From a virus, in the IMG/VR virus record IMGVR_UViG_3300006810_000416, positions 1 to 23,040 of that record: a stretch of DNA of 23,040 nucleotides; one strand, given 5' to 3'. Below are positions 6,143 to 22,477 of the stretch, one piece after another. Under the pieces are notes generated by a model. The model had not been told where the DNA came from. It did not search any database and saw only the letters and a list, made by a program, of their open reading frames with translations. Numbering within the stretch: the first letter of the stretch is position 1; each line of letters opens with the position of its first letter. A program made the translations under genes and the position numbers.

Positions 6143-6151
6143 TTACAAGAA

Positions 6152-6180
6152 ATTGTATTTAGTCTATCTTTCCTTTAAAC
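6152..6180 (-). promoter_or_regulatory. Candidate phage promoter, leftward (GTTTAAAG + ACAAT element)
   Basis: Read on the minus strand, GTTTAAAG (6180-6173) is followed after 8 nt by GACTAAATACAAT (6164-6152). The rightward element across the same gap has the same two parts with identical spacing, and its second part matches at 10 of 13 positions. It would drive the 184-aa gene, the giant fibre gene and the gene at the left edge. If the second part acts as a -10 element, the leader would be only a few bases long, which fits the missing Shine-Dalgarno. Confidence 0.6.
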
Positions 6181-6199
6181 TGATTTCCACGGTTTAAAG
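6173..6199. repeat. Perfect 8-bp inverted repeat in the divergent gap
   Basis: CTTTAAAC (6173-6180) and GTTTAAAG (6192-6199) are exact reverse complements separated by 11 nt (TGATTTCCACG). They sit in the middle of the 84-nt gap between the two divergent operons. The same octamer recurs singly in front of other genes, so I read this as two divergent promoter elements back to back. A dimeric operator is possible on this evidence alone. Confidence 0.75.
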
Positions 6200-6220
6200 C
6201 TGTATTAGAATAATAACAAT
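6192..6220 (+). promoter_or_regulatory. Candidate phage promoter, rightward (GTTTAAAG + ACAAT element)
   Basis: GTTTAAAG (6192-6199), 8 nt, then GAATAATAACAAT (6208-6220). The parts and the spacing mirror the leftward element. It lies 27 nt before the GTG start of the 295-aa gene, the first gene of the baseplate operon. Between the second part and the start there are only six bases, so the transcript leader is likely very short. Confidence 0.6.
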
Positions 6221-6226
6221 AAAGAT

Positions 6227-7114
6227 GTGGCAAAGAATAATTTTCTTACAGACAACCTTTCAACTGTAGGAGGACTGGCCGCCATTGCCTACGGGTCTTC
6301 TGCTTATTTTCAAACAGTAACAGACCAAGTTAGACAAGATTCTTCAACTAAAGAACTAGATTATCAGCTTCCTTCTAATGCTTTGTTAGATTACACAGGT
6401 ACTGATAAATTTGTCTATGACATTTTTTATGCTGCCATAGAAGAGGAATATAACTCTGGGAGTACTTTAACAGATTTTATAGATATTAACACAGCTGGAG
6501 AAGAAGAATTTTCCAAAAAATTACTGGAAATATTTTTATATAATATCAATAGGCTATCAGACTATCAAGATAATTACTCGTCATTGGTAGATGAGGCAAT
6601 TGAAGAAACAATCTATTATTTTAATAGAGAGACAGATTTAGAAGTAAGCATAGACTCTTTAGCTCAAAAAATACACAATGGATTTTTAAACTCAGAATAT
6701 TTAGGAAGAGATATTGCCAAGGTAGTTACTCTTTTGATAAGAAATCCTAAAACAAAAATTGCAGCGGCTCCTCCTGATTCTATTGTGTCTCTGTATGCTT
6801 CTCCAAGACAAGATAAGGATTTTAGAGGAGTGGACATGTATTGCGGTTATTTAACTAAGTCTCAGTACTATGGGGACACAGGCTATGTTTTAAAGAACGG
6901 GTCTATCAGGAAATCTGTTTCTGAGGGATACGTGGGGTATCCTGCAGTGACCTTAATAGGTGAAAGTTTATATAATTCTGACAGTTCCGATAACATAAGC
7001 TTAAAAGATTTAAGCTATTCTTCTAGCAGTCTTTTTGACTCGGGTGTAAGATTTTCGGCAACAGAAAGACAAATTTATAGTATTAACCTTGCTTCAATAA
7101 ATACAGGTAACTAA
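6227..7114 (+). CDS. Baseplate-operon protein of unknown role (295 aa, GTG start)
   Basis: I do not recognise a family. The protein is acidic and mixed alpha/beta. A helical middle section (about 60-170: KFVYDIFYAAIEEEY, LLEIFLYNINRL) is followed by a beta-rich, Ser-rich end. It is the first gene of the rightward baseplate block and sits 3 nt before the gpJ-like gene. In P2-like phages that slot holds gpW, the T4 gp25 relative, but this protein is much longer than gp25 and I see no gp25 signature. The start is GTG: an in-frame TAG lies 19-21 bases upstream and no in-frame ATG lies between. An out-of-frame ATG overlaps it (ATGTGG) and stops after 14 codons. There is no Shine-Dalgarno. A role as a baseplate wedge component is inferred from position only. 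Confidence 0.7.
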   Translation: MAKNNFLTDNLSTVGGLAAIAYGSSAYFQTVTDQVRQDSSTKELDYQLPSNALLDYTGTDKFVYDIFYAAIEEEYNSGSTLTDFIDINTAGEEEFSKKLLEIFLYNINRLSDYQDNYSSLVDEAIEETIYYFNRETDLEVSIDSLAQKIHNGFLNSEYLGRDIAKVVTLLIRNPKTKIAAAPPDSIVSLYASPRQDKDFRGVDMYCGYLTKSQYYGDTGYVLKNGSIRKSVSEGYVGYPAVTLIGESLYNSDSSDNISLKDLSYSSSSLFDSGVRFSATERQIYSINLASINTGN

Positions 7115-7117
7115 ATA

Positions 7118-8428
7118 ATGGCTGATATAAGAGGACCTATACTACCTCTCCAATTAGATCCTAGAAATACTCCGGCTCTAGTTAGAGATACACAAACAAA
7201 AATATTTTTAGAATCTGGTGGTCAGTTAAATGACTTTAGTGCAGCTTCTCCCTTGTCTGCAATAGTAGAAGGACAGGCCTATGCACAAAGCGAACTCTTG
7301 TATTATCTCAATTCGCTTCCTGAAGCTTTTACACTTCAGTGGTTTAGGCAATTAGGAATTCAAAGGTCTATTGGCGCAAAAGCAATTGTAGAAATTACTT
7401 TTACTAAGGTAGAAGGATTTGCAAGAACTGTAATAATTCCTAAAGGAACAATACTTTCTACTGTAAGTAATTTAAATTACATTTTAGATGAAGAAGTAAG
7501 AATCAATAACGATCAGCTTATTGCAACAGGGAAAGCAATATCTGAGAAGTGGGGAACAGTTTATAATGTAGCTACAGGAGCTATACAAAAAATCAATCTT
7601 AATATCTTGGGTCTTGGTGCTCAAACTAATGAAAGACAGGCGCAAGGGGGCAAAGACTTAGAGTCTATTGAAAATTTAAAAACAAGAGCATTTACTTTAT
7701 TACGAAGAAGAGGACTGATTTCTGCTAATGACTACGAAAATGAAATTAGAGAAATTGCCTCCGAAGCCTCTATTGTTAAAGTAATTACTCATGAGGAAAA
7801 AGAAAGGATAAGTGAGGATATTCCTACAGGAGTTATTGCAGTTTGTTTAGGAGATCAAGATGGTAGAGAACTCGAGGCAACAATAAGACAAAACCTTGTT
7901 AAGGCTCTAAGAAAAAGAGTTCCTCTTGGTACCGCAATATACCTCACCTCACCAGAGATCACTCCCTTAGAAACCACAGTTGTTATTGAATACGACGATG
8001 AGGTATTTACTACAGGTATAGATGCAAGAGCAGCGGCTATTAACAATATAATCTCTTCTTTTTTAAATATTCAAGAAATACCTCTTGGAGAGACATTTAA
8101 TTTTCAGCAAATTAGAAATGCTGTATTTGATCTTAACTTCGTAGACAAAGTTAGATCCTTATCTATAAAGCTTCTAAAGACAGAATCAGTGGCAACAGAC
8201 TCGAGCAATTTTTGTAATGCTCCTTTTGCTTCAGAATTAGTTAATGGAGTCTGTGTAACAGAGTACGAAGCAACAGTAGATAATACTGATGAGTCTTTTA
8301 CTAATACAAACGCATTAAGAAGCTTTAGGTATTATAAAAACACAATAACTTTGATTGCAAAATCAACCCAAGCACCTCTTACATACACCTTTGTTGATCC
8401 TGATTATCAAACTTTATTAGGAGGCTGA
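7118..8428 (+). CDS. Baseplate J-like protein (baseplate wedge, 436 aa)
   Basis: This belongs to the Baseplate_J family (P2 gpJ, Mu gp47, related to T4 gp6), which forms the wedge ring of contractile-tail baseplates. Visible family features are an N-terminal helical section with repeated SAIVEGQAYAQSELLYYL-type helices (45-80) and a beta region with IPKGTILST (107-115). The conserved linker GTVYNVATGAI (146-156) precedes GGKDLESIENLKTRAF (177-192), and RRRGLISANDYENEI (196-210) follows. A distal alpha/beta domain with LRKRVPLGTAIYLTSPE (264-280) comes next. The length is at the upper end for the family because of a C-terminal addition (about 355-436) holding a cysteine pair (C208-independent; FCNAP and GVCVTE). 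It lies 3 nt after the preceding gene and 1 nt before the gpI-like gene, the usual J-I order. Confidence 0.85.
   Translation: MADIRGPILPLQLDPRNTPALVRDTQTKIFLESGGQLNDFSAASPLSAIVEGQAYAQSELLYYLNSLPEAFTLQWFRQLGIQRSIGAKAIVEITFTKVEGFARTVIIPKGTILSTVSNLNYILDEEVRINNDQLIATGKAISEKWGTVYNVATGAIQKINLNILGLGAQTNERQAQGGKDLESIENLKTRAFTLLRRRGLISANDYENEIREIASEASIVKVITHEEKERISEDIPTGVIAVCLGDQDGRELEATIRQNLVKALRKRVPLGTAIYLTSPEITPLETTVVIEYDDEVFTTGIDARAAAINNIISSFLNIQEIPLGETFNFQQIRNAVFDLNFVDKVRSLSIKLLKTESVATDSSNFCNAPFASELVNGVCVTEYEATVDNTDESFTNTNALRSFRYYKNTITLIAKSTQAPLTYTFVDPDYQTLLGG
8419..8424 (+). promoter_or_regulatory. Strong Shine-Dalgarno AGGAGG inside the end of the gpJ-like gene
   Basis: AGGAGG lies 5 nt before the ATG of the gpI-like gene and overlaps the last codons of the preceding gene. 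It is the only full-consensus ribosome binding site I see before a gene here; most other starts have weak or no Shine-Dalgarno. It fixes the start at 8430. Confidence 0.8.
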
Positions 8429-8429
8429 T

Positions 8430-10682
8430 ATGGAGTATCTTTCAGTTTGGGATCAAAGAAATAGAAGGCCTATTGCTAGGGGCTTTAGAGCAGCTAAAAT
8501 TGTTGCAGAGTTTGATAGAACAAAAAAGATTAAAATTGCAGAGCATACACTCGGAGAAATAGAATTTGGTACAAATCCAGAGTTAAATAAATCAAGAAAC
8601 GAGGTTATTGATAGAGATATCGGTAAGCTAACGACTTCTGGTTTTCAGTATGAAAATATTGGAAATGTATTTTCTCCTGATCCTGAGTTTTTAGAAAAAG
8701 ACTCCGATGACAAGTATACTGTTCTTGGTCACGGTACTCCGGTAGAAGGAGACTTAACAGGAGGTAGAGAGAATTGTGCAATAGAGGGTTTGGTTTGCGC
8801 AAGTGGCCAAGGTACAAATAAATCCTGTAATCCTGGGAAATGCAAATTAGGAAAACTTCAAAAAATTACTAACTATAAGTGGAAATATACTTCTGAAAAC
8901 GGGTATCCAACGGCAAAAGTAGAATATTTTGTTGGAGGTAAAGAGTACGTAGAATTAAAAACTATAGCAAGAGGTGCACATACAAATAAGGATGGGACAG
9001 AAATAAACGTAAACAAACCTGCAAGTAAGGGAACAAGTATATACCTCCCTCCTGTAGGTTATATGGGGGATTTGTTTAACGAAGATTATTTAAAGGTAGA
9101 TCAGGGTGGAATTATTACCACAGAGGAAGATTTTGTAAGACAAATTATTGAGAGAGGGTATAAGAAACATCCGGTTATTGGAAAGTCTTTGGGTAAAGGT
9201 GGTTTGTATACTTCTATTGCAGATTCTCCTCTATCAGAAGAGGTATATACTGCTTTTTTAGATTTCTTTTTTAAGCTACCCAATCCCTGGAAAAAAGTTG
9301 TTAAGGATCTTGCTGATGCTAAGTGGAATGTAAAGGGAACAAGTCACGAAACAAACAGGGTTTTTATTGGAAGTTTATTTAATACTTTTAAAGTTAAGTT
9401 TACTCAGGCTATTCAAGTAACTGACTCGAGTTGGAAAGAGTCTAAGATCAAATATATTTCCGACCAAGGAGTAAGACCCACTTATCTAAGATTACCTGGG
9501 GCTTCTTTAAATTATAGAATATCTGAAGATAACGATATTGTAGTTGTATCTGAAGAAAAAGATAGATTCGATGTAAATATTTCTGCTCTAGAGATAGGAA
9601 CTATAGTAACCACGAGCAATAGAAAAATTGCTTATCAATTCTTGCCTAGGGTAATAGAGGATAGAGACGAAAGAGAAGAGTTCGGTATGTCTCCTGTACT
9701 AGATAACCGAACAAAGGAAGAGCTTTATTCTCCTAAAGACCCTAAATCTTGGCGTCCGCTACTAGAGGATCAGCTTCCAAAAGCCCCAGTAGCCAAGTGG
9801 ATAATGGCCGGTGTTGATGAGTTCTTAAGAGAAAAGAAACATGATATAGATTCGTTTTATTTTAAGTATCTTGATCCTACGGAATGTAGCGTTAAAAATA
9901 TAGATTGGCTGGCTCAGCACGTAGGACTTTGCGAACCAGTTTGGAATATAGCCTGGGATTTAGACTATAAAAGAGCGCTAATAAGAAATGCTTTAGGATG
10001 GTTTGATAAAGAGTTAATAAGTACGGTAGGAGATACAGACTACGATACTATCAAAGGCCAGATTCTTAAAGAGGCACCATTTACCTCCTCTTCGTGGAGA
10101 GATACCGAAGCTGTAGAAACAGGTGATGGTACAGATATTAGCGAAATAGATCTAACAAAAGTTGCTGCTTCTGGCTTCTTTAAAAAAGATGGTACTTTAA
10201 CCACTGGATTTTCTGTTTACAAGAAAGAGTGGGACGGACTGATGGAATCAAAAGGTTCTATTTTAACTCTAGTATTTTTATTTAGTTTGTTTAATGTAAA
10301 AGCTCATTCAGAAGACGAACTAATAACCGTCGGGTCTATCACCAAAGTTAGAAACGGTTTAAGATCTTATGAATCTAATGCACCTGTTCTTTTGCCTTAC
10401 AAACTAGAATTTTTGCAAACAGGAACCGAGGATGAAAAAGCTGTAGAAACTTATAGCAATCAAATGACCGTGGGGTCTGTAGTTGCAGATCTAGAGGGAG
10501 TAAAAACTACGTTCTTTAGAATGCCTTTCTATTACAATAGAGGAGGCAGAACGTGGGACCTTGTAGAATCAATCTCTAAATACTGGGTTCATCACACAAT
10601 GAACTCTAGAGTGCAATACGCGTACCTAGCTGCGGATCTCTGGAGACAGGGAGATGCGTATTTCCACTACGAGCAAAGTTAA
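8430..10682 (+). CDS. Phage tail protein I-like baseplate protein (750 aa)
   Basis: Residues about 440-530 match the pattern of phage tail protein I (P2 gpI): RPLLEDQLPKAPVAKW at the start, LDPTECSVKNIDWLAQHVGL (481-500), then VWNIAWDLDYKRALIRNAL. In P2-type baseplates gpI sits next to gpJ in the wedge and helps link fibres. The order here, gpJ-like then gpI-like, agrees. The protein is far longer than P2 gpI. About 430 extra N-terminal residues include a cysteine cluster (C116, C123, C133, C138) in a Gly/Lys-rich loop, and about 220 residues follow the gpI section. The extensions may replace other wedge proteins, but this is inference. Confidence 0.75.
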   Translation: MEYLSVWDQRNRRPIARGFRAAKIVAEFDRTKKIKIAEHTLGEIEFGTNPELNKSRNEVIDRDIGKLTTSGFQYENIGNVFSPDPEFLEKDSDDKYTVLGHGTPVEGDLTGGRENCAIEGLVCASGQGTNKSCNPGKCKLGKLQKITNYKWKYTSENGYPTAKVEYFVGGKEYVELKTIARGAHTNKDGTEINVNKPASKGTSIYLPPVGYMGDLFNEDYLKVDQGGIITTEEDFVRQIIERGYKKHPVIGKSLGKGGLYTSIADSPLSEEVYTAFLDFFFKLPNPWKKVVKDLADAKWNVKGTSHETNRVFIGSLFNTFKVKFTQAIQVTDSSWKESKIKYISDQGVRPTYLRLPGASLNYRISEDNDIVVVSEEKDRFDVNISALEIGTIVTTSNRKIAYQFLPRVIEDRDEREEFGMSPVLDNRTKEELYSPKDPKSWRPLLEDQLPKAPVAKWIMAGVDEFLREKKHDIDSFYFKYLDPTECSVKNIDWLAQHVGLCEPVWNIAWDLDYKRALIRNALGWFDKELISTVGDTDYDTIKGQILKEAPFTSSSWRDTEAVETGDGTDISEIDLTKVAASGFFKKDGTLTTGFSVYKKEWDGLMESKGSILTLVFLFSLFNVKAHSEDELITVGSITKVRNGLRSYESNAPVLLPYKLEFLQTGTEDEKAVETYSNQMTVGSVVADLEGVKTTFFRMPFYYNRGGRTWDLVESISKYWVHHTMNSRVQYAYLAADLWRQGDAYFHYEQS

Positions 10683-10684
10683 CT

Positions 10685-12103
10685 ATGGCGCAAGAAGCTT
10701 CATTTATAAGAAAACAAATTCAGGCTCAGCAGGCTTTTGAGATTCTTTCAAAAAAGACTGGTGGGCTTGAGTCTGATGCTTTTATCCATCCCGGTATTAT
10801 TGCAGACGTCAATGATCCAGACAAAAAAGGAAGAGTAAAAGTTGTATATGGTGAAGATGAAGCTAATACAAAAACAGAGTGGGTTCCGGTACTTAATGCG
10901 GGAAAGGGCGTTCTTACGTCTCAATTGTTAGGATCTAACGTAATTGTAGGATCGATTTCTGGTAACGTTAATGACAATATTGTACTAGGACTTTATAACA
11001 ACGAGATGGTTCCGTCGCTTCCAGCGTCTATTCCTATCGTTGATAAATCCGCCATTCAATACGCAGGAGATCCTGGTACTCAATGTAACAAAGAAAATGA
11101 GGGGAGGATGTATGTTTTCTCTAACAACGTATCGCAGGACTTAAAAATTTGTCTTAGAAGAAACAACAGACAAGGAGGACCTGATAAGGATGTGTACGAA
11201 TGGAAAAATATTACTAGAGGGTTAGTAGTTCAAGGCTCTGGTGATCCTAAAGAAATTGAGCAGGGCAACGTACTAATTGAACAAGACCCACTTGGCAAAT
11301 GTACTCAAGAAAGAGAGGGAGAGCAAGTTCAGTTTGCAGAAGATAGAGACTATAGGCAAATGCTTCTTACCTGTAAAAAAGATGAGAATAAAGAATGGGG
11401 ATGGGTTCCGGTCTCTACGATCCCTACATATTTTAAATCTACACTACCTAAGTGCACTGAAAAAGTCCATGGGCAAACCGCTCTTCATGACGACGGAAAT
11501 AACTCGGAGATGATTATTTGCGTTAGGTACAATAAAGAAATGAAGTGGGTGAAGTATGGGAGCAGGGAGGTTGTGCAATGGGAAGGAACACCCGTACCCA
11601 CTCCAGAAGAGGTTGCTAAAACAATACCCAATGCTTTATTACAAATCGGAGGAGCAGCGGCCGCTGCGGCAGCTGGAGGTTCTTTAGGTGCCCTATCTTC
11701 TGTTATCTCTAATCCTGACAACGTAAATAGTATTTTAGGTTCGGCCCTGGGAGCGATGGAAGGTCTGGCCGACGCCGGCTCTCTAGGAGGAGTTGCAGAT
11801 CAGATTAGTGGAGTAGCTGATATAGCCACTAGCGTAGCTGGTACATATGCAAACATTGCTGCAGGAGGAGTGCCTATAGCCGATGCTATGACATCTATAT
11901 TAGATACCGCAACAAGCATTGCTCAGATACCTAGTAACATACCCAATACATATCTCACTCCAGATGGCGCTAAAACTCTTGCAGATCAGGCCGCTCTAAA
12001 CCCTGACAACGCAAACTTAAACTTTTCGGAAGAACTTTCCACAGAAAACTTTAAAGATAAATACGGTGTAGACGATGACAATCCAGCCTTAGAACTATTA
12101 TAA
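10685..12103 (+). CDS. Baseplate V / spike-type OB-fold protein with Cys-bracketed repeats (472 aa)
   Basis: Residues 32-108 fit the N-terminal OB-fold of phage baseplate assembly protein V and T4 gp5: AFIHPGIIADVNDPDKKGRV, then WVPVLNAGKG, VIVGSISGNVNDNIVLGLYN. Family members form the trimeric membrane-piercing spike below the tail tube. There is no beta-helix of the usual kind after the OB-fold. Instead there are three units of about 45-50 residues, each with a Cys pair 22-24 residues apart and a following Trp (C134/C156/W173, C206/C230/W238, C257/C279/W288). Next comes an Ala/Gly run (323-332) and a long Ala/Gly/Ser-rich helical tail. It follows the gpI-like gene by 2 nt and precedes the Gly/Ala-rich gene by 4 nt. 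The OB-fold call is good; what the C-terminal half does is unknown. Confidence 0.78.
   Translation: MAQEASFIRKQIQAQQAFEILSKKTGGLESDAFIHPGIIADVNDPDKKGRVKVVYGEDEANTKTEWVPVLNAGKGVLTSQLLGSNVIVGSISGNVNDNIVLGLYNNEMVPSLPASIPIVDKSAIQYAGDPGTQCNKENEGRMYVFSNNVSQDLKICLRRNNRQGGPDKDVYEWKNITRGLVVQGSGDPKEIEQGNVLIEQDPLGKCTQEREGEQVQFAEDRDYRQMLLTCKKDENKEWGWVPVSTIPTYFKSTLPKCTEKVHGQTALHDDGNNSEMIICVRYNKEMKWVKYGSREVVQWEGTPVPTPEEVAKTIPNALLQIGGAAAAAAAGGSLGALSSVISNPDNVNSILGSALGAMEGLADAGSLGGVADQISGVADIATSVAGTYANIAAGGVPIADAMTSILDTATSIAQIPSNIPNTYLTPDGAKTLADQAALNPDNANLNFSEELSTENFKDKYGVDDDNPALELL
11078..11560 (+). repeat. Three diverged Cys-bracketed modules in the spike-type gene
   Basis: The encoded segments around residues 132-178, 204-243 and 255-292 share a layout: Cys, a charged stretch with Glu/His-Gly, a short beta segment, then hydrophobic-x-x-Cys, a charged loop and Trp (for example QCNKENEG...LKICLRR...YEW; KCTQEREG...LLTCKK...EWGW; KCTEKVHG...IICVRY...KW). 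DNA similarity is low. Such C...G...C...W units occur in phage and bacterial surface proteins. I infer small beta modules stabilised by the Cys pair. Confidence 0.7.
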
Positions 12104-12107
12104 AATA

Positions 12108-13727
12108 ATGTTTAATTCTACCGAAATTTTAACAAGCTCTGGTATTGAGGCAATGTCAGCTGCTTATCAGTCTATACTAAGCCCTCAAGAAAGGGGAGTT
12201 TTTTCGGCCGCTCTAGTTGGTGGTGCTGCCGGAGCATTTGATGCCGCTGCTCAGTACGGAATGGATAAGCTTCCATCAGGCCCTATTGGCGATTTTGCAA
12301 CTGCAGCTACTAGCAATCTAGATCTTACAAAAGCACCAGGTGCTATACAAAATGTTATCGATGGAGGATTAAGCGGAGGATTATCAGCTGCCATTGGCGA
12401 TATTGCTGGAGGAATAGATTTTAATAACGTTGACATAGCAAGTTTAAGCAGTCAATTAGCTGGAGGTAGTTTTGGCAATGTCGCCGGACTTATGCAAAAT
12501 TTTTCTAACCAGCCTGGCCTTAACTCTTTAGTCCCTGGTCTTACAACAACGGCTTCTTCTGTCTTAGGAGCAGCCGGTCTAGGAGGACCTTGGGCAGCAG
12601 CTATTCCTGCTGCAGGTTTAGGAATCCAAGGTGCTACTGCTCTATTAGGTGGGCAAAATCCCATGGGTGCTATACTCGGTGGTGGCGGAGCTTTTGGATC
12701 GTTACTCGGTGGGATTGGCGGATTATTTGGAGGAGGCGGTGGTAACCCCTGTCCTTGTCTACCCAAGTGTAGAAAAGTAGATCATGGTGCCGCAAGCAAC
12801 GGAGTAAATCCACTAGAAGCTACTGGGGCATTAATAGAAAATAACTCTAATAAATACGGATCTGATATTCTTAATAACAACGCCACTTGCCTCGCACAAG
12901 CCGCAGGATTAGATTTTTCTGGTATTGGAGAATCGCTTATCCCCAGTAACATTCTTAATTTAACAGGGGCAATTAATAGCATACCTGCATTAAACGACCC
13001 CGCAGGAAGGCTAGAAAAAGCAATAAAGGGAGGAGCGGAACAGTCTGACTTAATGCTAGAGTTTATGTACGCTTTTGAGGGTATGGAGAAGGGGCTTAAG
13101 TTTGCAGATAATAATATTAGCCAGTTAGAATGGATTAATCATATTAACTTAGTAAAAGGATTACTAGGTTATGACAAAATAATCACAGGGAATAAATCTA
13201 TACTAGATTTAAATGCTGTAGATACAACGGAGCATGCTCAAGCAATTACAGATTTGTTTGCAATGGTTCAAAAACTTGATGGTGCTCTATATAGAGGAGC
13301 GTTGGGAATAGCACCTACTCCGGCAATCTTAGCTTCCGCTGCTAATATAAAAGAAATCCCTGCAAAATACGCAAAGAATAAAGCATTTTTAATAGCAAAC
13401 GTAATCAAAGATATAAAGCAAGCCCTTGATCTTTTAACGGATTTAGATCCAGAGTTCGGGATTGCATTTGATCTAAGCGATAGCGATCAAAAATTTAATC
13501 AGTCTAAAGTCTTAAACGATTCCTTATCAGCAAAAATATCAAGCTCTGCACCTCAGGAAGATAAGGTGAACTATACTTTCTCGGCAGCAGCGGGTAATAA
13601 CAGCTCACAGAATCCATTTAGGTCGTTGAGTAATAGCCAGATTGGCTCTGGCGAATTTGATACATTAATCTCCCAAGTAAATAATGAAAAAGAAAGAGCT
13701 GCTCGTAAACAGGGCTCGTGTGATTAA
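12108..13727 (+). CDS. Gly/Ala-rich baseplate-operon protein with CxCxxxC motif (539 aa)
   Basis: I do not recognise a named family. Residues 1-210 are unusually rich in Gly and Ala. They carry stretches that could insert into or cross a membrane (PWAAAIPAAGLGIQGATALL at 161-180, then GAFGSLLGGIGGLFGGGGG). Immediately after comes a compact cluster, NPCPCLPKCRKVDHG (213-227: C215, C217, C221, H226), that could bind a metal. Residues 300-450 are helical and soluble-looking. The gene follows the spike-type gene by 4 nt and ends the baseplate operon. Position plus motif suggests a spike-tip or hub accessory protein that reaches the host membrane, but this is inference. No Shine-Dalgarno is seen before the ATG. 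Confidence 0.65.
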   Translation: MFNSTEILTSSGIEAMSAAYQSILSPQERGVFSAALVGGAAGAFDAAAQYGMDKLPSGPIGDFATAATSNLDLTKAPGAIQNVIDGGLSGGLSAAIGDIAGGIDFNNVDIASLSSQLAGGSFGNVAGLMQNFSNQPGLNSLVPGLTTTASSVLGAAGLGGPWAAAIPAAGLGIQGATALLGGQNPMGAILGGGGAFGSLLGGIGGLFGGGGGNPCPCLPKCRKVDHGAASNGVNPLEATGALIENNSNKYGSDILNNNATCLAQAAGLDFSGIGESLIPSNILNLTGAINSIPALNDPAGRLEKAIKGGAEQSDLMLEFMYAFEGMEKGLKFADNNISQLEWINHINLVKGLLGYDKIITGNKSILDLNAVDTTEHAQAITDLFAMVQKLDGALYRGALGIAPTPAILASAANIKEIPAKYAKNKAFLIANVIKDIKQALDLLTDLDPEFGIAFDLSDSDQKFNQSKVLNDSLSAKISSSAPQEDKVNYTFSAAAGNNSSQNPFRSLSNSQIGSGEFDTLISQVNNEKERAARKQGSCD

Positions 13728-13763
13728 ATTCTGAACAAAAATGTACTAGTTTTAAAATTTTTT

Positions 13764-13771
13764 GTTTAAAG
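13764..13771 (+). promoter_or_regulatory. GTTTAAAG element before the HNH-terminase pair
   Basis: The exact octamer lies in the 50-nt gap after the baseplate operon and is followed directly by TATAGT, then the ATG of the HNH gene 6 nt after the octamer. The upstream part of the gap is very AT-rich and has a weak inverted repeat (AACAAAAAT / ATTTTTTGTT) ending at the octamer. The closeness to the start would leave almost no leader for the HNH gene, so the element may serve mainly the terminase. Confidence 0.45.
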
Positions 13772-13777
13772 TATAGT

Positions 13778-16214: not shown

Positions 16215-16218
16215 CGCA

Positions 16219-16227
16219 TGGTATAAT
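16219..16227 (+). promoter_or_regulatory. Extended -10 promoter TGGTATAAT before the thioredoxin-sigma operon
   Basis: TATAAT is exact and preceded by TG one base away, the extended -10 consensus of housekeeping sigma factors. No good -35 is seen at the expected distance, which is normal for extended -10 promoters. The predicted start is near 16234. This is the only gap over 30 nt without GTTTAAAG, so the sigma operon may be read by unmodified host RNA polymerase. Confidence 0.6.
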
Positions 16228-16234
16228 TACAAAA

Positions 16235-16261
16235 GTCGTAGGTTTTGTATAGTAAAACGAC
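16235..16261 (+). other. Stem-loop at the predicted 5' end of the thioredoxin-sigma transcript
   Basis: GTCGT-AGG-TTTT pairs with AAAACGAC around a GTATAGT loop: 9 pairs with a three-base bulge (AGG). It begins where a transcript from the TGGTATAAT promoter would start. A 5' hairpin could protect the mRNA, but I cannot show that it forms. The rest of the gap to 16300 is AT-rich with a GAGAT before the ATG. Confidence 0.4.
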
Positions 16262-16300
16262 GAGCGCACGCGATTTATTTATTAGTAAAACATTTGAGAT

Positions 16301-16615
16301 ATGACAAACTCTACACAATTTAAATATAGAGTAGTTTTCTTTAAACAACCAACATGTGTTGCATGTGAAACTATGAAGCCTATTTGGGTTGAGGTTGCAA
16401 ATAAGATTTGCGAAGAGTACCCCCATTATAACGTTGGTTTTGGCGAATGGGACGTAACTTCTGATGACTGGGAATTCTGCGATAAGATCGAGTGCGACGG
16501 CACTCCTAACTTTGCAGTCTTTGATGAAGAAGGAGTTCTACTGGGAATTAATACTGAAGGAATGCTTGCAGCCGGGCAGCTAAAGGACTTCATAATTACC
16601 TCTATTGAGAAATGA
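16301..16615 (+). CDS. Thioredoxin-like protein (104 aa)
   Basis: This is a small thiol-disulphide oxidoreductase-type protein. The active-site pair is C19-V-A-C22 inside FFKQPTCVACETMKPIW, at the N-terminus of the first long helix. The cis-proline loop is GTP (68-69) in DGTPNFAVF, and the length is that of a classical thioredoxin. The CVAC dipeptide differs from the usual CGPC, so its redox potential may differ. There are further cysteines at 37, 60 and 65. It shares a start/stop overlap (ATGA) with the sigma gene, so the two are co-translated. In phages thioredoxin-like proteins can serve nucleotide reduction or polymerase processivity. Neither partner is in this window. Confidence 0.82.
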   Translation: MTNSTQFKYRVVFFKQPTCVACETMKPIWVEVANKICEEYPHYNVGFGEWDVTSDDWEFCDKIECDGTPNFAVFDEEGVLLGINTEGMLAAGQLKDFIITSIEK

Positions 16616-17382
16616 AGCAAAGAACTAAGTCTAAGAGAGCAAGAGATAAACGCGATGAGCATATTATCTCTCAAATGTGGAAAGCAGACCAGGTTGCTAG
16701 AAAAATCTCGAATTTTACCGGGTTGCCATTTGAGGAGCTCAGAGATGCAGCGCTCGAGTATATTGTTCGTATTTATGACACCTGGGATCAGAGCAAAGGG
16801 GCAAACTTTAGTACCTGGGTAAACAGGTGCTTGCAATTCCACATGCTCAATTATCTTAGAGATAGTTCTAGGCTTGTTAAGATGCCTCGTTCGTATTCCG
16901 ATTTATATCTGAAGATCAGAAAATACCTCATTAAAAATCCTAATATCACCAATCAGGAAATTGCAGACGATTTAAAGATTCCTGTCAAGAAGGTCGATAC
17001 TGTTCGCACAGCTTTTACAATGAGTTTTAATCCTGTTACGGAACAAAACTGCGTTATTGAAAGTTCCGAGACAAACGAAATCGGATTTAATGAGTTACTT
17101 TCAAATCACAACGAGTTGTTGTTCAGGATTACTGACCTGGAGTCTAACGATGAAACTTTCTTGATTGACTACCTTGTAAAGAAAAGATCAGTATCTACTC
17201 TTTTACGTAAAAACCCCCACCTTAAAAACATTGATGATATTAAGTCGTACTCGACTAAGCTAATTAACTACATACTATGGGCAGACAAGTCGTTCGAGTC
17301 CTGGGACAAGACTATACAAAAACAGGGTTCGAGAAAAAGTGGTCAGAAGTCGTTAAAAACACAGAATGCAACTACTTCGTAA
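16612..17382 (+). CDS. Phage RNA polymerase sigma factor, region 2-3 type (256 aa)
   Basis: It redirects host RNA polymerase, most likely to phage late or structural promoters, in the way of T4 gp55. Region 2 is clear at about 36-90: LRDAALEYIVRIYDTWDQ, then GANFSTWVNRCLQFHMLNYL with RDSSRLVKMPRS. Region 3 follows at about 91-135, with the helix-turn-helix-like NITNQEIADDLKIPVKKVDTV. Residues 160-222 may be a strongly degenerate region 4; no clear region 4 helix-turn-helix is seen. The last 35 residues are basic, Ser/Gln/Lys-rich and overlap the next gene in another frame. The start overlaps the thioredoxin-like stop by 4 nt. Confidence 0.85.
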   Translation: MKQRTKSKRARDKRDEHIISQMWKADQVARKISNFTGLPFEELRDAALEYIVRIYDTWDQSKGANFSTWVNRCLQFHMLNYLRDSSRLVKMPRSYSDLYLKIRKYLIKNPNITNQEIADDLKIPVKKVDTVRTAFTMSFNPVTEQNCVIESSETNEIGFNELLSNHNELLFRITDLESNDETFLIDYLVKKRSVSTLLRKNPHLKNIDDIKSYSTKLINYILWADKSFESWDKTIQKQGSRKSGQKSLKTQNATTS

Positions 17383-17978
17383 GATCGCCGGATTTTGAAT
17401 TTGTCCACGAGGTGGTTGGTAAGATAGAGAAGTGGAAAACGCTTCATGAACGTAATGGCCTCAAGTACAAAATAAGAAATAAGAAGTTTCAAGGTCGTGC
17501 TGTACGAGGAGTTGTGATGATAACTCCTAGGTCAAAAAGGGAAATCTGGTTGGGGAAAGGAAAAATAGTTGAAGAACTATTTCCCAGAACAAAGCCTCTG
17601 CCCGAATATAGGCAAAATAAAAAAGAAGCGCTGGCGGCTCTAAGACAAATTGTTGAGCCTCAGATTGTTTTATATAGAAAATCTGTATTAAGACAGATAA
17701 AGCGCAAACCATTAAAATGTCCTATTTCAGCAGATTTTTTGGAAAATACAAGTTTTCATATAGATCACAAATATCCATTTAAAGATTTGGTGATAGAATG
17801 GTGCAGAGAAGAAAAAGTAGATCTTGAAAATATAGACGTTTATTGTAGGGGCACAAAATGCTATCTAAAAGACACAACTCTTGCAGAGTCTTGGTTTGAT
17901 TATCATATGATTAATGCAGAACTTCAAGCGTTAAGCGCAAAAGCAAATTTGCAAAAAGGTTCAAAATATTATGGCTAA
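17277..17978 (+). CDS. DCL/DUF3223-like protein with HNH-type C-terminus (233 aa)
   Basis: The C-terminal part has the shape of the nuclease-like end of DUF3223/DCL-family proteins: KCPISADFLENTSFHIDHKYPF (HIDH, residues 161-164, with C148 ahead). Then come a W and YH (W206, Y209, H210) and ALSAKANLQKG at the end. The N-terminal half (about 13-105) has DYTKTGFEKKWSEVV and GRAVRGVVMITPRSKREIW, compatible with a DCL-like domain, but this is a weaker match by eye. Its first 35 codons overlap the end of the sigma gene by 106 nt in another frame. The next Met in frame is residue 81, which would remove most of the DCL-like part. Its stop codon overlaps the stop of the converging 205-aa gene. Role unknown; a DNA-cutting or DNA-processing function is likely. 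Confidence 0.65.
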   Translation: MGRQVVRVLGQDYTKTGFEKKWSEVVKNTECNYFVRSPDFEFVHEVVGKIEKWKTLHERNGLKYKIRNKKFQGRAVRGVVMITPRSKREIWLGKGKIVEELFPRTKPLPEYRQNKKEALAALRQIVEPQIVLYRKSVLRQIKRKPLKCPISADFLENTSFHIDHKYPFKDLVIEWCREEKVDLENIDVYCRGTKCYLKDTTLAESWFDYHMINAELQALSAKANLQKGSKYYG

Positions 17979-18592
17979 ATTGACCGAATATCATCATCAG
18001 CTAGATCTCTTTCATCAAAGGCTTCTTCAAAAAGTTCTTCTACTTTTTCTGCAATAATATCACCAATGCCTTGAGCAGTTTTATCGCTACTTAGCCAAGG
18101 CTTATTCTTATCAACTAGAGGAGCATACTTTACTTTATTCCCTATAGAATAAACTCCTTGAGTCCTCCTACGAACAAAATGTCCTGCATATAACTTACCG
18201 GTAATTCTTTTAATTCCTTCTTCGTTGTATCTTTGCTCCAAGTACTGGATGATCGGTGTTTCTGGGCCCTTTGTACTTAGAAATATATTAAGACGTTTTA
18301 ATACATTCTCTACTACCACATTTATATTGTCTGAAGATTCGTCAAAGTCTACATCGAGCTCCATGTCTTGGACGGCTTCTATGTATCCTTCAGAACGTTC
18401 CTTTACTTGGTCTAAAAAGTTTTGTGCTATTTGCTCTCCGATTAATGCTTTAACATCCTGCATCTGAGACTTGAGAGCAGCCTCTTTTATCCGCTCTCTT
18501 GCAGCATTTTTTACTTCATTTTTAAGAGAGTCTTTGATTCCATCGAGAGCTATTCCGATTATAAACTTAGATAGGGCTTGGACTGGTATCAT
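17975..18592 (-). CDS. Putative tail-completion/minor tail protein (205 aa)
   Basis: The N-terminal half is helical and charged, with possible coiled-coil character (about 15-75: KDSLKNEVKNAARERIKEAA). The C-terminal part, GNKVKYAPLVDKNKPWLSS (151-169) followed by a helix, resembles the YAP..vD.G....PWL pattern of HK97 gp10-type head-tail or tail-completion proteins. The match is loose. It starts with ATGA overlapping the stop of the hub gene, so the two are co-translated and probably work in the same structure. Its end overlaps the end of the converging DCL/HNH gene. Confidence 0.5.
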   Translation of the reverse strand: MIPVQALSKFIIGIALDGIKDSLKNEVKNAARERIKEAALKSQMQDVKALIGEQIAQNFLDQVKERSEGYIEAVQDMELDVDFDESSDNINVVVENVLKRLNIFLSTKGPETPIIQYLEQRYNEEGIKRITGKLYAGHFVRRRTQGVYSIGNKVKYAPLVDKNKPWLSSDKTAQGIGDIIAEKVEELFEEAFDERDLADDDIRSI

Positions 18593-21500
18593 GATGGCTT
18601 AAGGCACTCAAGTACTTCACGAGCAAATTGTTGTCGATCATCTAAGACCGGCGTACCGGCTCTTTCATAAGCTGCTTCAAAAATTCTTGTTGCCTCGTTA
18701 GCACTATTTGTAGCATTTAATTGGCGGATCATCTCTTCGCCGCTTATGGCCCCTCCAAATTTATTATTCTTTACTTCATATACAAACCAGGACATCTGAG
18801 TATTTATGCTTTTTGGATCACCGCCTATTTTTGCCGCGTATTGTTCAAGTGCTGCTTTTCTAGGTCCGTTCCATTGAAATATACCCAGCTCCCCAGCGGC
18901 TCCTAAAGCCTGGGGATTTAAATAAACTCCATTTACACTTGATTCTTTTAACCCATTACCAAGAATTCCGGCTGTACCGGCTGCACTATTTATACCTAGT
19001 TGAGATGCCGCGTCGATTACTTTTTGAATATTAGTGGGATTATATTTACTACAGGTGTACTTAAATTTACCGGGAGGAAACTCTGATTTTACGTCATTTG
19101 CGCCAATTTGCCCAGGCTCTCTTCTTGCGCTTGAAGGTTTACCGCATTCATTGCATGAAAGTTTTCCGTCTTTTCTTTTGTAGCATAAATCACTAGGAGA
19201 TCTAATATAGTCGTAGTAATCTGCATATTCGTAGTCTTGAAGGTACTCGCTAAATGTAGGCACTAGCCCCTCCCAGGTTTGATTCTGAGTAGTATCCGGC
19301 CTTCTAAGCGCATTAACAGTAACTTTTAGGTTTCCTTTTTCCCACTTCCACTCTGTTTCATTTACAAACCAATTTCTATACTCATCTGGTACCCATACTC
19401 CAGGATCAACTTGAGTGTCATCTTTGCCTCCTTCTATCCAAGAATCATAGTCTGATACAAAAGACAGTACAGTTTTACCTGGTTCTATTTCTAGAGCCCT
19501 AGGAACTCCTTGAAACTCTGTTTTTAGTTGGAAACAAAATTTATCCTGAAGCGGCGCAGCGCCGCCACTTGAGACAGGACTTGAAGTAACTTTGTTGGCA
19601 ACAGCGGGTATTAAGTCTGCTTTATCTGCTCCTTGAGGAGGGCTGGGAAATAAGTGAGCTAATAAAAGTCCTTTGCCTCCTCCAATATCAAGAACGACAT
19701 ACGACCCATAGCCTCCTTTGCTACCAACGTCATTAACTTTAATATTAGGATTAGTTATATCTATAGGTTGGCCAATAATTCCTGCACCGACAATATCTAC
19801 GCCTTCGTGCAACTTACCATTTCTTGGACCATAGGGAGAACCTGTTTCCCACTGAGATGGTTTTTTGCCACCTATGGTGATATAAGGATCTAGATCGGCA
19901 GCTGTAACTTTTGGAGATATATCGTTTTTAAAACCCACTCCAGTTAAAGTAGATATTTCTGCATGCAAGTGTGCCCCGTCTTTTCCTGGGGGATCGACGT
20001 TTCCGCTATATCCTACCCAACCCACTAATGTTTTTCCCTCGTTATCTCCAGAAGAGCTATCTGGCGCCTTATCCTCTTGTTCTTTATCTTTGAGAGGCTC
20101 GGTGACAGACATTGTAAGCCTAACGGTTGCCGGAGTAATGGAAATTACAGAAGACTCTGCCTGAGGAGGTCTTATAAAGTATCTTGTTTTAGTTTGTTTA
20201 TCCCCTGTCTGCACCTCTCCGACTTTAGCACCAATTTCTATATCATCTCCTTCTTTTACCTTTATACCCGATAGAGACGTATACTCTTGATGTATGTAAT
20301 AACGTTGTTCTTTGTTCTGAGCAGATAAATTTATAGTAAGCGTGCTTTTAACTACGACTCTTCCTTCTTCTTTAGATACAGTAGTAACTTTTCCTCCTAA
20401 ATAAGACATGCCCTCTTTTGCATTTCCAAATGCTGCGTTCTTTTCTAGCTTTGTTATAGTAAATTTTTTACCTTTAGCCTCACCTTTAAATACAACTTTT
20501 GCTTGGTTACCAGTAGAGTAGTCTCCTATCTCATCAAATTGCCCCTCAAATTTAGTAAAAGCGTTTGAAGAGGCGGCATTTATTTTCTCTATTGTTTCGG
20601 TTACAGCGTTATTGTTATTTTTAGAAAATTTAAATTCTCCCTCGCCTACTTGGGCCAGGCCTGGCAGCGGTTCTGGGTTTTCAGGATCGCTTGTTTTAGG
20701 CCGAGACGTAGTAATATCAAATTCATTAATAGCGTACTCAGCATTTATACTATATTGCTTATATAAACCCTTACCTAAATAAAACACTCTAGACGCCCTA
20801 CAGCTATAATCTGTTTTATTACAAATCTGAATAACTTTAGCGTTTTCCGCCTTGGCAGAAATGTAGGCATCCATAAACTCTTTTTCTCCGCTGTATTTTT
20901 GTAACAACTGCCCTGGAGAAAGAGCAGTGCTTTTATAGGACTTTTCAGAGACTTCGTCCTCGTCTTCTCCGCATACAGACTCTATCTTATATCCAGATTT
21001 TGAAAATATTTTATCATTCAATTGTTTAAGGACCGGCTTTCCCTTCTCAAAGAAAACAGGTATAGTTTGATTAAAGTCTGTACTAAAAGCGTATTGCCCC
21101 CTCATTGTAACTTGAGGATATTTTGAACCATGGTCAATAGTTACTTTTGTGGCTTTAAAATATGTTTGAAACTCTGAAGTTATTCCTATGCCCTCTATTT
21201 CATAATAAAGAGATATAATTATCCATCCCCTGTTTTCTGCTAGGTTAACAAGATCTGGATCGTCTATTGTATCGTAAAAGGGATAACAAGGAGTGCTGTC
21301 TGGATCTTGGCCTTTTTCACATTTAGGTAAAAGTGTTCCTGCATTTTGATAAGCATTAAATCCGCTCATCACTTGTGCCATGTTTCCAAGTACAGGCCAA
21401 GCAGCCCCGTCTAAATAGGGATCGTTAAGAGTTACAGTGCATTCGTTATCTTTGGTACTATATAGTAAATCATCTAGCCCTCCGCTGGTATTTGTGTTAA

Positions 21501-21627
21501 ACGTAGTAACATTCTGTTTTAATTTTACAGAGACAGAGTCTATCTGCCGTTCTGGAAAAACAATTACGTTTTTACTTTTTGCAGGTTTGAAAGCAACTTT
21601 TGCTCGGCACCTATATATGCTATTCAC
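18589..21627 (-). CDS. Baseplate hub/tail lysin with M23 peptidase and tail-lysozyme domains (1012 aa)
   Basis: A tail-tip protein that opens the cell wall. Residues 1-300 are beta-rich and look like a gp27/gpD-type hub platform; this is inferred from position and style. Residues about 405-472 resemble the front of an M23 domain (YLGGKVTTVSKEEG, then IKVKEGDDIEIGAKVGEV) but lack its metal ligands. GAHLHAEIS (551-559) is the HxH motif, and YGPRNGKLHEGVDI (599-612) holds the HxxxD pair. GGYGSYVVLDIGGG and LLLAHLF (638-660) follow. All M23 ligand motifs are present, but HxH comes first. Residues 862-1008 fit the phage tail lysozyme family, with GILGNGLKESSVNG (catalytic Glu candidate E895), ELGIFQWNG and QMSWFVYEV. 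Cysteine pairs occur at 103/114, 269/276 and 825/828. The start is GTG; an in-frame stop lies just upstream and no ATG is available. No Shine-Dalgarno. Confidence 0.82.
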   Translation of the reverse strand: MNSIYRCRAKVAFKPAKSKNVIVFPERQIDSVSVKLKQNVTTFNTNTSGGLDDLLYSTKDNECTVTLNDPYLDGAAWPVLGNMAQVMSGFNAYQNAGTLLPKCEKGQDPDSTPCYPFYDTIDDPDLVNLAENRGWIIISLYYEIEGIGITSEFQTYFKATKVTIDHGSKYPQVTMRGQYAFSTDFNQTIPVFFEKGKPVLKQLNDKIFSKSGYKIESVCGEDEDEVSEKSYKSTALSPGQLLQKYSGEKEFMDAYISAKAENAKVIQICNKTDYSCRASRVFYLGKGLYKQYSINAEYAINEFDITTSRPKTSDPENPEPLPGLAQVGEGEFKFSKNNNNAVTETIEKINAASSNAFTKFEGQFDEIGDYSTGNQAKVVFKGEAKGKKFTITKLEKNAAFGNAKEGMSYLGGKVTTVSKEEGRVVVKSTLTINLSAQNKEQRYYIHQEYTSLSGIKVKEGDDIEIGAKVGEVQTGDKQTKTRYFIRPPQAESSVISITPATVRLTMSVTEPLKDKEQEDKAPDSSSGDNEGKTLVGWVGYSGNVDPPGKDGAHLHAEISTLTGVGFKNDISPKVTAADLDPYITIGGKKPSQWETGSPYGPRNGKLHEGVDIVGAGIIGQPIDITNPNIKVNDVGSKGGYGSYVVLDIGGGKGLLLAHLFPSPPQGADKADLIPAVANKVTSSPVSSGGAAPLQDKFCFQLKTEFQGVPRALEIEPGKTVLSFVSDYDSWIEGGKDDTQVDPGVWVPDEYRNWFVNETEWKWEKGNLKVTVNALRRPDTTQNQTWEGLVPTFSEYLQDYEYADYYDYIRSPSDLCYKRKDGKLSCNECGKPSSARREPGQIGANDVKSEFPPGKFKYTCSKYNPTNIQKVIDAASQLGINSAAGTAGILGNGLKESSVNGVYLNPQALGAAGELGIFQWNGPRKAALEQYAAKIGGDPKSINTQMSWFVYEVKNNKFGGAISGEEMIRQLNATNSANEATRIFEAAYERAGTPVLDDRQQFAREVLECLKPS

Positions 21628-21651
21628 TAGATGACATTACTCGTATATATA

Positions 21652-21659
21652 CTTTAAAC
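21652..21659 (-). promoter_or_regulatory. GTTTAAAG element before the hub gene
   Basis: On the minus strand GTTTAAAG is followed by TATATATAC and lies 24 nt before the GTG of the hub gene. Its first G is also the last base of the terminator hairpin of the preceding gene, so termination and re-initiation signals are fused. Confidence 0.5.
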
Positions 21660-21685
21660 CCCCAGAAGGGATCTCCTCCTGAGGG
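21659..21685 (-). terminator. Intrinsic terminator after the 243-aa gene
   Basis: On the minus strand CCCTCAGGAGG pairs with CCTTCTGGGGG over 11 bp (two G-U pairs) around a five-base loop (AGATC), 24 nt after the stop of the 243-aa gene. The T-run that follows is only TTT, then AAAG and TATATATA, so it may be a weak or partial terminator, or an mRNA 3' stabiliser. It is the strongest hairpin I noticed in a gap. Confidence 0.6.
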
Positions 21686-21709
21686 CTAAAGAGACTATTT
21701 AATTTTTTA

Positions 21710-22441
21710 TCAGAGTAGCTGAGTAACCTCGGCAAGCGCGGGAGTAGATCCAGCGGGAAGTGTACCAACAGCGTCAAGGGCGATAATAACGATATCGCCA
21801 ACCGAGTAATTAGCGCCTGGAACTGGAACTCCAAGATTGTCGCCAGATGCCGTAACAACTCCGTCAACAACAGATAGGCCGTTGTCAAGATTCGCGTTTC
21901 CGTCACCACCACCAGAATCTTCGGTGCTAACCAAGAAGAAGGTTGTGGCGCCATCAGCAGCGTTGGTGTAACCTGATCCGCCGTCGATAAGAGTAATAGT
22001 AAGAATTCCGCCTTCAGCAGCAGTACCCTCAACAACTTCTGTCTCAACTTCACCAACGATACCAGAGATCACTTCGCAAAGATTGAATGTAGCAACCATG
22101 AAGTGAAAGTCTTCTTCGCCTTCAAGGCCAACAAAACGAGTAACATTAACTAACTCTGTAGTAAGAGCAGTCTTGTCTGCAGCTGGAACAGCGGCTGAGG
22201 CTTGAAGGGCAAGTACAACTTGCTCAAGAACGGCGTAAGCATTACGCTTAGCTTCAAATCCCATAGAAGGTCCGCACTTAATAAACTTTGTAAGTGCTGT
22301 TGCAGCGGCTGCTGCTTCTCCGGCTTGTGCTTGAACAAGGGGATCATCCTTAAATTCTGTAAGGAGAGTCTGTAATTTCAGTTTGAATTCAAATTCAATA
22401 CCGAGGGTACGAGATAAACCCTCGTTTAGAATATTAGCCAT
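21710..22441 (-). CDS. Probable virion protein, helical N-half and Gly-rich beta C-half (243 aa)
   Basis: I do not recognise the family. Residues 1-135 are mostly helical and Ala-rich. Residues 140-243 are beta-rich, with GGILTITLIDGGSGYTNAAD and GANYSVGDIVII (209-220). This GGSGYT / YxVGD pairing recurs in marine phage virion proteins. The codon choice looks more even and GC-richer than in its neighbours, and the gene has its own promoter element and terminator. Together these suggest a highly made single-gene unit such as a tail, decoration or other major structural protein. The ATG is preceded by ACAATACT with no Shine-Dalgarno. A function beyond 'virion protein' is not supported. Confidence 0.6.
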   Translation of the reverse strand: MANILNEGLSRTLGIEFEFKLKLQTLLTEFKDDPLVQAQAGEAAAAATALTKFIKCGPSMGFEAKRNAYAVLEQVVLALQASAAVPAADKTALTTELVNVTRFVGLEGEEDFHFMVATFNLCEVISGIVGEVETEVVEGTAAEGGILTITLIDGGSGYTNAADGATTFFLVSTEDSGGGDGNANLDNGLSVVDGVVTASGDNLGVPVPGANYSVGDIVIIALDAVGTLPAGSTPALAEVTQLL

Positions 22442-22444
22442 AGT

Positions 22445-22477
22445 ATTGTTTTATAACAAATCTAGTTATCTTTAAAC
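22445..22477 (-). promoter_or_regulatory. Candidate phage promoter before the 243-aa gene
   Basis: GTTTAAAG (22477-22470), 12 nt, then GTTATAAAACAAT (22457-22445), with the ATG three bases later. The octamer includes the stop codon of the upstream kinase-like gene. The second part shares AAACAAT with the divergent pair and also resembles the T4 late element TATAAATA. The spacer is 4 nt longer than in the divergent pair. Confidence 0.5.

Follow-up and report, generated by a model that had tools for sequence, protein, structure and literature searches.

In phage T4, late promoters have an 8-bp box lying about one helical turn ahead of the transcription start, are A+T-rich downstream of it and lack a -35 element (PMC2988020). 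The cyanobacterial type 3 sigma factor SigF uses promoters with TAGGC at -32 and GGTAA at -12 (PMC2758279), and the J-Box promoters of SigJ combine an extended -10 element, GGGaAtacT, with a weak -35 and serve developmental genes of Nostoc (PMC6495340). Here we describe an octamer, GTTTAAAG, that precedes genes in a 23,040-base viral fragment (positions 1 to 23,040 of IMG/VR record IMGVR_UViG_3300006810_000416; hereafter the window), and which is quite probably the core of a late promoter, at the place of a -10 element, in S-TIM5-like cyanophages, read by a SigF-like sigma factor encoded by the phage. With the T4-type late promoter of gp55-encoding phages such as Syn9, the octamer shares the 8-bp element, the lack of a -35 consensus, the A+T-rich flank, the distance to the start codon and the placement before virion genes, but it differs in sequence (GTTTAAAG here, TATAAATA there) and in its candidate reader, which belongs to PHROG family 351 rather than to family 234 of Syn9 gp55. 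SigF is the named sigma family nearest to this reader, and the box of cyanophage S-CBWM1, GGTAAAA, contains GGTAA, whereas GTTTAAAG does not, and TAGGC is not enriched upstream of it. The likeness to the J-Box lies in an element of a group 3 sigma factor that is read mainly from the -10 side and has an upstream G, with sequence and target genes being different.

Judged by protein identity, the source virus is a relative of cyanophage S-TIM5 (genus Aurunvirus; listed host marine Synechococcus), with a terminase large subunit (TerL; 14625-16214, + strand) 97% identical and a sigma factor 99.6% identical to those of S-TIM5; S-TIM61 and S-TIM66 equal S-TIM5 in TerL closeness, and S-TIM54 is further off (91%). 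A search with this TerL returned 54 IMG/VR loci, most at 87–97% identity (near relatives) or 63–71% identity (distant relatives), and one at 28%. The window holds six exact copies of GTTTAAAG, with an exact count agreeing with the initial annotation on every position and strand. The copies at 6173-6180 (-) and 6192-6199 (+) stand back to back with 11 bp between them, and would be the promoter cores of the gene at 5588-6142, which is followed by the tail-fibre gene at 86-5569, and of the run of baseplate and tail genes at 6227-13727, respectively. The copy at 13764-13771 (+) precedes the ATG of an HNH homing endonuclease gene (13778-14632, +; phrog_655, 2.2e-15) inserted upstream of terL, and those at 21652-21659 (-) and 22470-22477 (-) are the putative promoter cores of a tail-lysozyme structural gene (18589-21627) and of the gene at 21710-22441, whose S-TIM5 orthologue is annotated as a virion structural protein. 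The ends of these five copies lie 30, 27, 6, 24, and 28 nt from the next start codon, the range of 6–30 nt first claimed for them, although where the 18589-21627 gene begins is in doubt, the orthologue in S-TIM5 being annotated with a start 84 nt past the octamer. The sixth copy (16339-16346, -) is antisense within the thioredoxin-like gene, as initially annotated, and, with no gene start nearby, is taken as a chance copy.

The number of copies alone is only moderately unusual, since one of 100 dinucleotide shuffles of the window also reaches six (mean 1.94, largest 6), and this is the one point in favour of chance or base composition as an explanation. The strong evidence in the window is placement: with a gene set of 16 genes leaving 450 non-coding bases, four of the six copies lie wholly within gaps (P of at least four of six = 2e-6). 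The initial annotation placed all five gene-proximal copies in gaps, which stands for these four, with the copy at 22470-22477 overlapping the final 6 nt of the upstream open reading frame (ORF; 22472-23035).

Genome-wide counts refute chance. S-TIM5 carries 36 copies, of which 22 are wholly and four partly intergenic and ten are coding, in a genome where intergenic sequence makes up 5.0%; thirty first-order Markov resamples give a mean of 12.3 copies and a maximum of 20. This is the genome-wide count of coding against gap copies that the initial annotation had proposed. For 25 of the 36 copies, an annotated same-strand start follows at a distance of 15–50 nt. Among all 8-mers within 60 nt upstream of the 212 annotated S-TIM5 protein genes, GTTTAAAG is the most enriched (25 of 36 copies against an expected 1.33, p 6e-28). 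When its letters are permuted in all 560 ways, no other word exceeds 6 intergenic copies, compared with 23 for the octamer. In nine non-identical related records, with ORFs called for this analysis, 150 of 212 copies fall outside called ORFs, and in co-oriented gaps 81 copies point toward the gene and none away, the remaining gap copies being divergent (67), convergent (1) or at an edge (1); a count by orientation in relatives had likewise been put forward. The record G004 was excluded here, being 100% identical to part of G001; a ten-record count that includes this duplicate gives 229 copies, 90 toward the gene and none away. For unannotated records, and for all counts of orientation, variants, profiles and distances, including those for the upstream words of Syn9 and S-CBWM1, gene starts are the first ATG, GTG or TTG of ORFs of at least 50 codons called by a greedy caller. 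Across fifteen records the octamer exceeds its reversed word in 14, with the smallest ratio in G005 (11 against 6); the exception, G015, is a 42-kb fragment with a TerL identity of 28% and is also without the sigma factor. This enrichment, the orientation and the conserved footprint leave nothing to chance or composition: the octamer is strongly non-random and a real signal.

The genes that carry the octamer in S-TIM5 are preferentially those of the virion, with a copy within 75 nt upstream of 17 of 47 structural or packaging genes and 8 of 165 others (Fisher 1.6e-7), and this preference, together with the orientation count, supports the initial annotation of a phage-specific promoter element. 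Host-type extended -10 sequences (TGnTATAAT or TGATATAA) lie upstream of 1 of the 47 structural genes and 14 of the 165 others, a difference that is not significant alone (p 0.2), and no S-TIM5 gene has both the octamer and either of these sequences within 75 nt. Of six listed S-TIM5 structural genes preceded by a gap but not by an exact octamer, three carry a variant (GTTTAAGG, GTTTAAAT, and GATTAAAG). The homing endonuclease inserted before terL (13764-14632 with its box) carries its own octamer; exact copies occur in two of three unique upstream regions of HNH genes (L008 and L010), with GTTTAAAT in the third (L050), and none is found in 33 unique regions upstream of terL. An apparent 6-nt gap after the S-TIM54 copy at 81602-81609 is an artefact of the ORF caller, the annotated start at 81639 giving 29 nt.

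Which letters are tolerated is evident both genome-wide and at orthologous sites. In eight records (the set without G004 and G006, the latter not a duplicate), single-change variants enriched 17- to 45-fold upstream of genes are GATTAAAG, GTTTAAAT, GTTTATAG, GTCTAAAG, GTTTAAGG, GGTTAAAG, and GTTGAAAG, with 22 of 65 copies of GATTAAAG in the upstream zone (40-fold), and no single change at G1 or A5 is enriched in these records. Orthologous regions were compared only for matches that start in the first 25 query residues and have enough upstream sequence. At the divergent gap 6143-6226, all six near relatives retain both octamers. The leftward side has the exact octamer in 8 of 19 unique regions (the six near, L056, and L082, a doubtful orthologue), and the remaining 11 regions, which belong to distant relatives, show GGTTAAAG (7), GATTAAAG (3) or GTTTAAGG (1); on the rightward side it is exact in 8 of 18 (six near, two distant), the other ten showing GTTTAAAT in nine and GTTTAATG in L056, these variant tallies being counted by eye. 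That the same variants appear genome-wide and at the orthologous divergent site argues well for their being functionally equivalent, though both observations come from related records. The exact octamer is retained before the 21710-22441 gene in 18 of 19 unique orthologous regions, and before the 18589-21627 gene in 13 of 23, all of them near relatives.

The position of the octamer is best seen in a profile of 109 sites, obtained by removing look-alikes from 158 sites that lie no more than 130 nt before a gene start in records other than the window. The base just before the octamer is A or G at 81% of sites, A/T is preferred downstream to about +20, and further upstream no position exceeds 0.12 bit, with no -35 consensus at these sites; the A+T fraction is 0.74 and 0.73 at +1 to +20 compared with 0.62 upstream. 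Neither GTTT (17 sites, 19.9 expected) nor TAGGC in the 40 nt upstream (1 site, 2.7 expected) is enriched before the octamer, and GGTAA is not enriched in the 30 nt after it (1 of 109, 3.3 expected). The median distance from octamer to start codon in the eight records is 26 nt (n=121; unchanged at 26 once G006 is added, n=133), close to that of ATAAATA in Syn9 (27, n=15, p 0.46) and of GGTAAAA in S-CBWM1 (24, n=19, p 0.56), with host-type TGnTATAAT at 22.5 (n=50, p 0.02 against the octamer). Shine-Dalgarno-like words between octamer and start, present at 19 of 121 sites, are scattered from +2 to +30 and so are uninformative for the transcript start.

The MotA box of T4 is bound by an activator and lies around -30 in sigma70 promoters, some 12 nt upstream of the -10. 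The initial annotation had likened the placement of the octamer to such a box, and as a phage-specific box before genes it resembles the T4 middle promoter. The comparison is not supported, in that the position of the octamer fits a -10 element: the distance to the start is wrong for a MotA box and there is no spaced -10, TATAAT occurring in the 30 nt after the octamer at only 4 of the 109 sites (3.7 expected), at +1, +2, +5, and +7. Start-codon distance, lack of a -35 consensus and the A+T-rich downstream flank instead fit a T4-type late -10 box. Similarly, GTTTAA is the -35 hexamer of SigB promoters in Bacillus and Staphylococcus, so the octamer could be conceived as a SigB-like -35 element with its -10 about 13–15 nt downstream, and the best VIA match of the phage sigma factor is indeed Staphylococcus aureus SigB. 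This arrangement is very improbable, with no conserved element 12–16 nt downstream, and GGGTA at 1 of 109 sites within 30 nt (1.5 expected); additionally, the start-codon distance equals that of the Syn9 and S-CBWM1 boxes, and a -10 placed so far downstream would put the start at or inside many genes.

Back-to-back octamers 5, 11 or 17 bp apart are found in S-TIM5, S-TIM54, G001, G009, G010 and the window, and are so close that they leave no free -35 zone; octamers facing each other within 60 bp were not found. The spacings are exactly 5, 11, and 17 bp, that is, 6-bp steps (S-TIM5 49537/49562, 57041/57054, 122783/122802 and relatives), and by spacing and gene order the pairs look like three orthologous places. 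These pairs also bear on whether the octamer might work at the RNA level, within the leader, to guide translation or processing; in favour of this, the fairly fixed distance before start codons and dyads 6–12 nt downstream at 16 of the 109 sites (4.8 expected) can be cited. Between opposite-strand pairs at such spacings a separate promoter further upstream would hardly fit, and folding of the leaders is no stronger than that of shuffles (mean z -0.09 to -0.19), making an RNA motif an even more remote proposition than a SigB-like -35 element. The inverted repeats themselves, with arms of at least 5 and centred 6–12 nt after the octamer, exceed a shuffle maximum of 10; a milder excess is seen at 18–24 nt (11, 5.8 expected) and 24–30 nt (10, 5.2 expected), and none at 12–18 nt (3, 5.7 expected).

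The proposed reader of the octamer is encoded at 16612-17382 (+) as a sigma factor apparently of the SigF/SigB/FliA type (group 3). Among NCBIfam models SigF is the best match of the window protein, and the SigF, SigBFG and FliA/WhiG models match all 20 sequences of the sigma alignment, in which the window is joined by 19 from a set of 58 loci with a match to the sigma factor; the window protein scores far below the curated cut-offs of these models. Pfam Sigma70_r2 is matched by all 20 at E up to 1 (window 23.7 bits, cut-off 24) and Sigma70_r3 by 7 of 20, with Sigma70_r4 not among the matches; the stretch of regions 2 to 3.0 is almost invariant across the 20. The window protein matches phrog_351 (4.5e-18) and not phrog_234, whereas Syn9 gp55 matches phrog_234 (1.3e-71). 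An AlphaFold model of the sigma factor (mean pLDDT 65) matches sigma regions 2–3, with the S. aureus SigB open complex as the top row in VIA (Z 12.0, rmsd 3.5, 136 aligned) and other sigma factors within Z 1; ordered by E-value in Foldseek, S. aureus SigB ranks third, behind two integrative models titled RPSD-RPOB and RPSB-RPOC. As the full-length VIA table barely probes the C-terminal part, this part was modelled alone (pLDDT 84), and its matches were mainly to sigma region 4 (Z 7.2 at best, with rmsd 4.4 and 71 aligned), with no Foldseek match with E under 1; the C-terminal domain thus may be a weak sigma region 4.

The sigma gene follows the thioredoxin-like gene (16301-16615, +) in a presumed operon, upstream of which lies the host-type extended -10 sequence TGGTATAAT (16219-16227, +). 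Among 37 unique upstream regions of this operon, 33 have an exact TGnTATAAT and the other four have TGGTACAAT, with the octamer in none, the arrangement expected under a cascade from host to phage sigma factor. In several near relatives, an inverted repeat seen by eye, GTCGTAGGTTTT...AAAACGAC, lies downstream of TGGTATAAT (16228-16290 in the window) and perhaps forms a hairpin in the thioredoxin-sigma leader.

The initial annotation had named the phage sigma factor or an activator as reader, and the sigma factor is the best candidate by association. The same association leaves room for a late-promoter octamer read by an alternative sigma factor of the host, or by a host sigma factor with a phage activator or appropriator: 14 of the 15 records have the octamer excess and the one without it lacks the sigma factor, which ties the two together no more closely than that. 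Furthermore, TATAG and ATAGA occur after the octamer at 26 and 27 of the 109 sites, where base shuffles would give about 5, and TATAG at +5 to +9 faintly resembles a -10 hexamer. Of these occurrences, 17 of 29 for TATAG and 18 of 28 for ATAGA begin at +5 to +9, where initiation would be expected. The spacer between octamer and TATAG, however, would be about 4–8 nt and too short for the usual pairing of -35 or MotA box with a -10. Were TATAG the -10, transcription would begin some 18 nt after the octamer, reaching or passing the start codons where the gap is 18–22 nt and passing that of the HNH gene; TATAAT is not enriched in this region, and the other gene class uses a clean TGnTATAAT without the octamer. 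Reading by a host sigma factor, alone or with a phage protein, is therefore unlikely, if clearly less remote than the SigB-like or RNA alternatives.

Reading by the phage sigma factor at a late -10 box would proceed as follows, and we infer the promoter, its lateness, its transcription start and its reader from the position, orientation, gene class, conservation and tolerated variants of the octamer, from the lack of a -35 consensus, and from the split in promoter type between the sigma operon and the late genes. Host RNA polymerase would first transcribe the early genes and the thioredoxin-sigma operon from TGnTATAAT extended -10 promoters. The phage sigma factor would then bind the host core enzyme, with its regions 2 and 3 recognising GTTTAAAG, for preference with A or G just before it, and needing no fixed -35 element. 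Melting of the A+T-rich flank would follow, and transcription would begin about 6–9 nt downstream of the octamer, resulting in virion-gene leaders of roughly 10–35 nt.

Several observations weigh against this mechanism. The exact octamer lies within 75 nt of only 17 of the 47 S-TIM5 structural genes, and three of the six listed genes with an upstream gap and no exact copy have no clear variant either, one of these being the gene whose octamer is 84 nt off by annotation. The octamer is absent from all ten distant regions upstream of the 18589-21627 orthologues, and 62 of the 212 copies in the nine records lie in coding sequence (39 sense, 23 antisense). Counts across records are not independent events because the records are related, and the division of the 109 deduplicated sites into 61 co-oriented toward the gene and 48 divergent comes from sites preselected for a same-strand start within 130 nt. 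Distance alone cannot single out a late box because TGnTATAAT sites are similarly placed, and the copy 6 nt before the HNH start codon leads to the prediction of a leaderless late mRNA. On the protein side, the window sigma factor scores 43 bits against the NCBIfam SigF cut-off of 261, and its weak region 4 domain would pair a reader having a possible -35 domain with promoters that lack a -35. Additionally, S-CBWM1 encodes two sigma factors, either of which may read its GGTAAAA box.

Whilst the T4-like Syn9 (annotated gp55 and gp45, 40.6% G+C) has only three octamers in 177 kb, and neither of the two in the 50 kb checked falls in the 60 nt preceding any of 25 listed starts, it uses ATAAATA, with 13 of 38 copies at 8–60 nt upstream (p 2e-16). 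Conversely, TATAAATA is absent among the 25 most enriched S-TIM5 8-mers. The model PF02916, used to look for the gp45 sliding clamp, matched none of four phages, including Syn9 with its annotated gp45, nor any control, and so is uninformative.

The Aokuangvirus S-CBWM1 (51.6% G+C) encodes a distant relative of the window sigma factor (E 6e-8; SigBFG 2.5e-14). It has no copy of GTTTAAAG in 139,069 bases and 11 of the reversed word, possibly a sign of avoidance. Its top upstream 7-mer is GGTAAAA, with 18 of 47 copies at 8–60 nt (p 3e-20), 18 toward the gene and none away in co-oriented gaps, and 24 copies in coding sequence; shifted to GGGTAAA, the word has 13 copies toward the gene and 1 away. 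In the 50 kb of annotation covered (53–103 kb), the 11 gap sites precede one tail-fibre, one endosialidase, one BNR-repeat and one sigma (101633) gene and seven hypothetical genes, and since these sites mostly precede hypothetical genes the link between box and late genes is weaker than in S-TIM5. No GTTT -35 is found upstream of GGTAAA at 19 sites (1.7 expected), and TAGGC, found at 2 of the 19 (0.7 expected), lies only 2 and 5 nt before GGTAAA, at the wrong spacing. In our alignment anchored on TAAA, GTTTAAAG and GGGTAAAA share G1, T4, A5, A6, and A7. We tentatively suggest, as a possibility that falls slightly short of an even chance, that Aurunvirus and Aokuangvirus use a SigF-type sigma factor as a late switch independent of the gp55 machinery of T4-like cyanophages, and that sigma factor and box have changed together. 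If so, one lineage keeps a host-like GGTAA(AA) and the other reads a private GTTTAAAG, which would be conserved in both branches of its relatives by TerL and would even travel with an inserted homing endonuclease. The copy of GGTAAAA before the S-CBWM1 sigma gene itself (NC_048106.1, 101602-101608; gene at 101633) raises the possibility of an autoregulatory loop. The Microcystis phage MaAM05, with a sigma factor 25% identical and ispH among its neighbours, was considered and rejected, its 16 octamers being near the control of 12 reversed words.

A phage late promoter served by a phage sigma factor is of a known kind; the box, the sigma type and the pair of genera are new to us. S-TIM5-like phages are reportedly widespread marine cyanophages outside the T4 group, to go by the title of Sabehi et al. 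2012. Our literature search gave no account of late control in S-TIM5-like phages, with Sabehi et al. 2012 lying outside that search and an earlier mention being possible. Judged by title, none of the listed papers containing GTTTAAAG is on phages and none of those mentioning S-TIM5 deals with its transcription; for Aurunvirus no paper was returned. A late box with a candidate sigma factor offers a simple, testable cascade, would let metagenomic contigs be scanned for late operons by sequence alone, and provides, in related phage sigma factors with different boxes, a pair for studying joint change of sigma factor and promoter. Lastly, an octamer lies 201 nt upstream of psbA, the gene of the photosystem II protein D1, in both S-TIM5 (L061:8047-8054) and S-TIM54 (L065:7859-7866), a position that suggests a long late leader for psbA.

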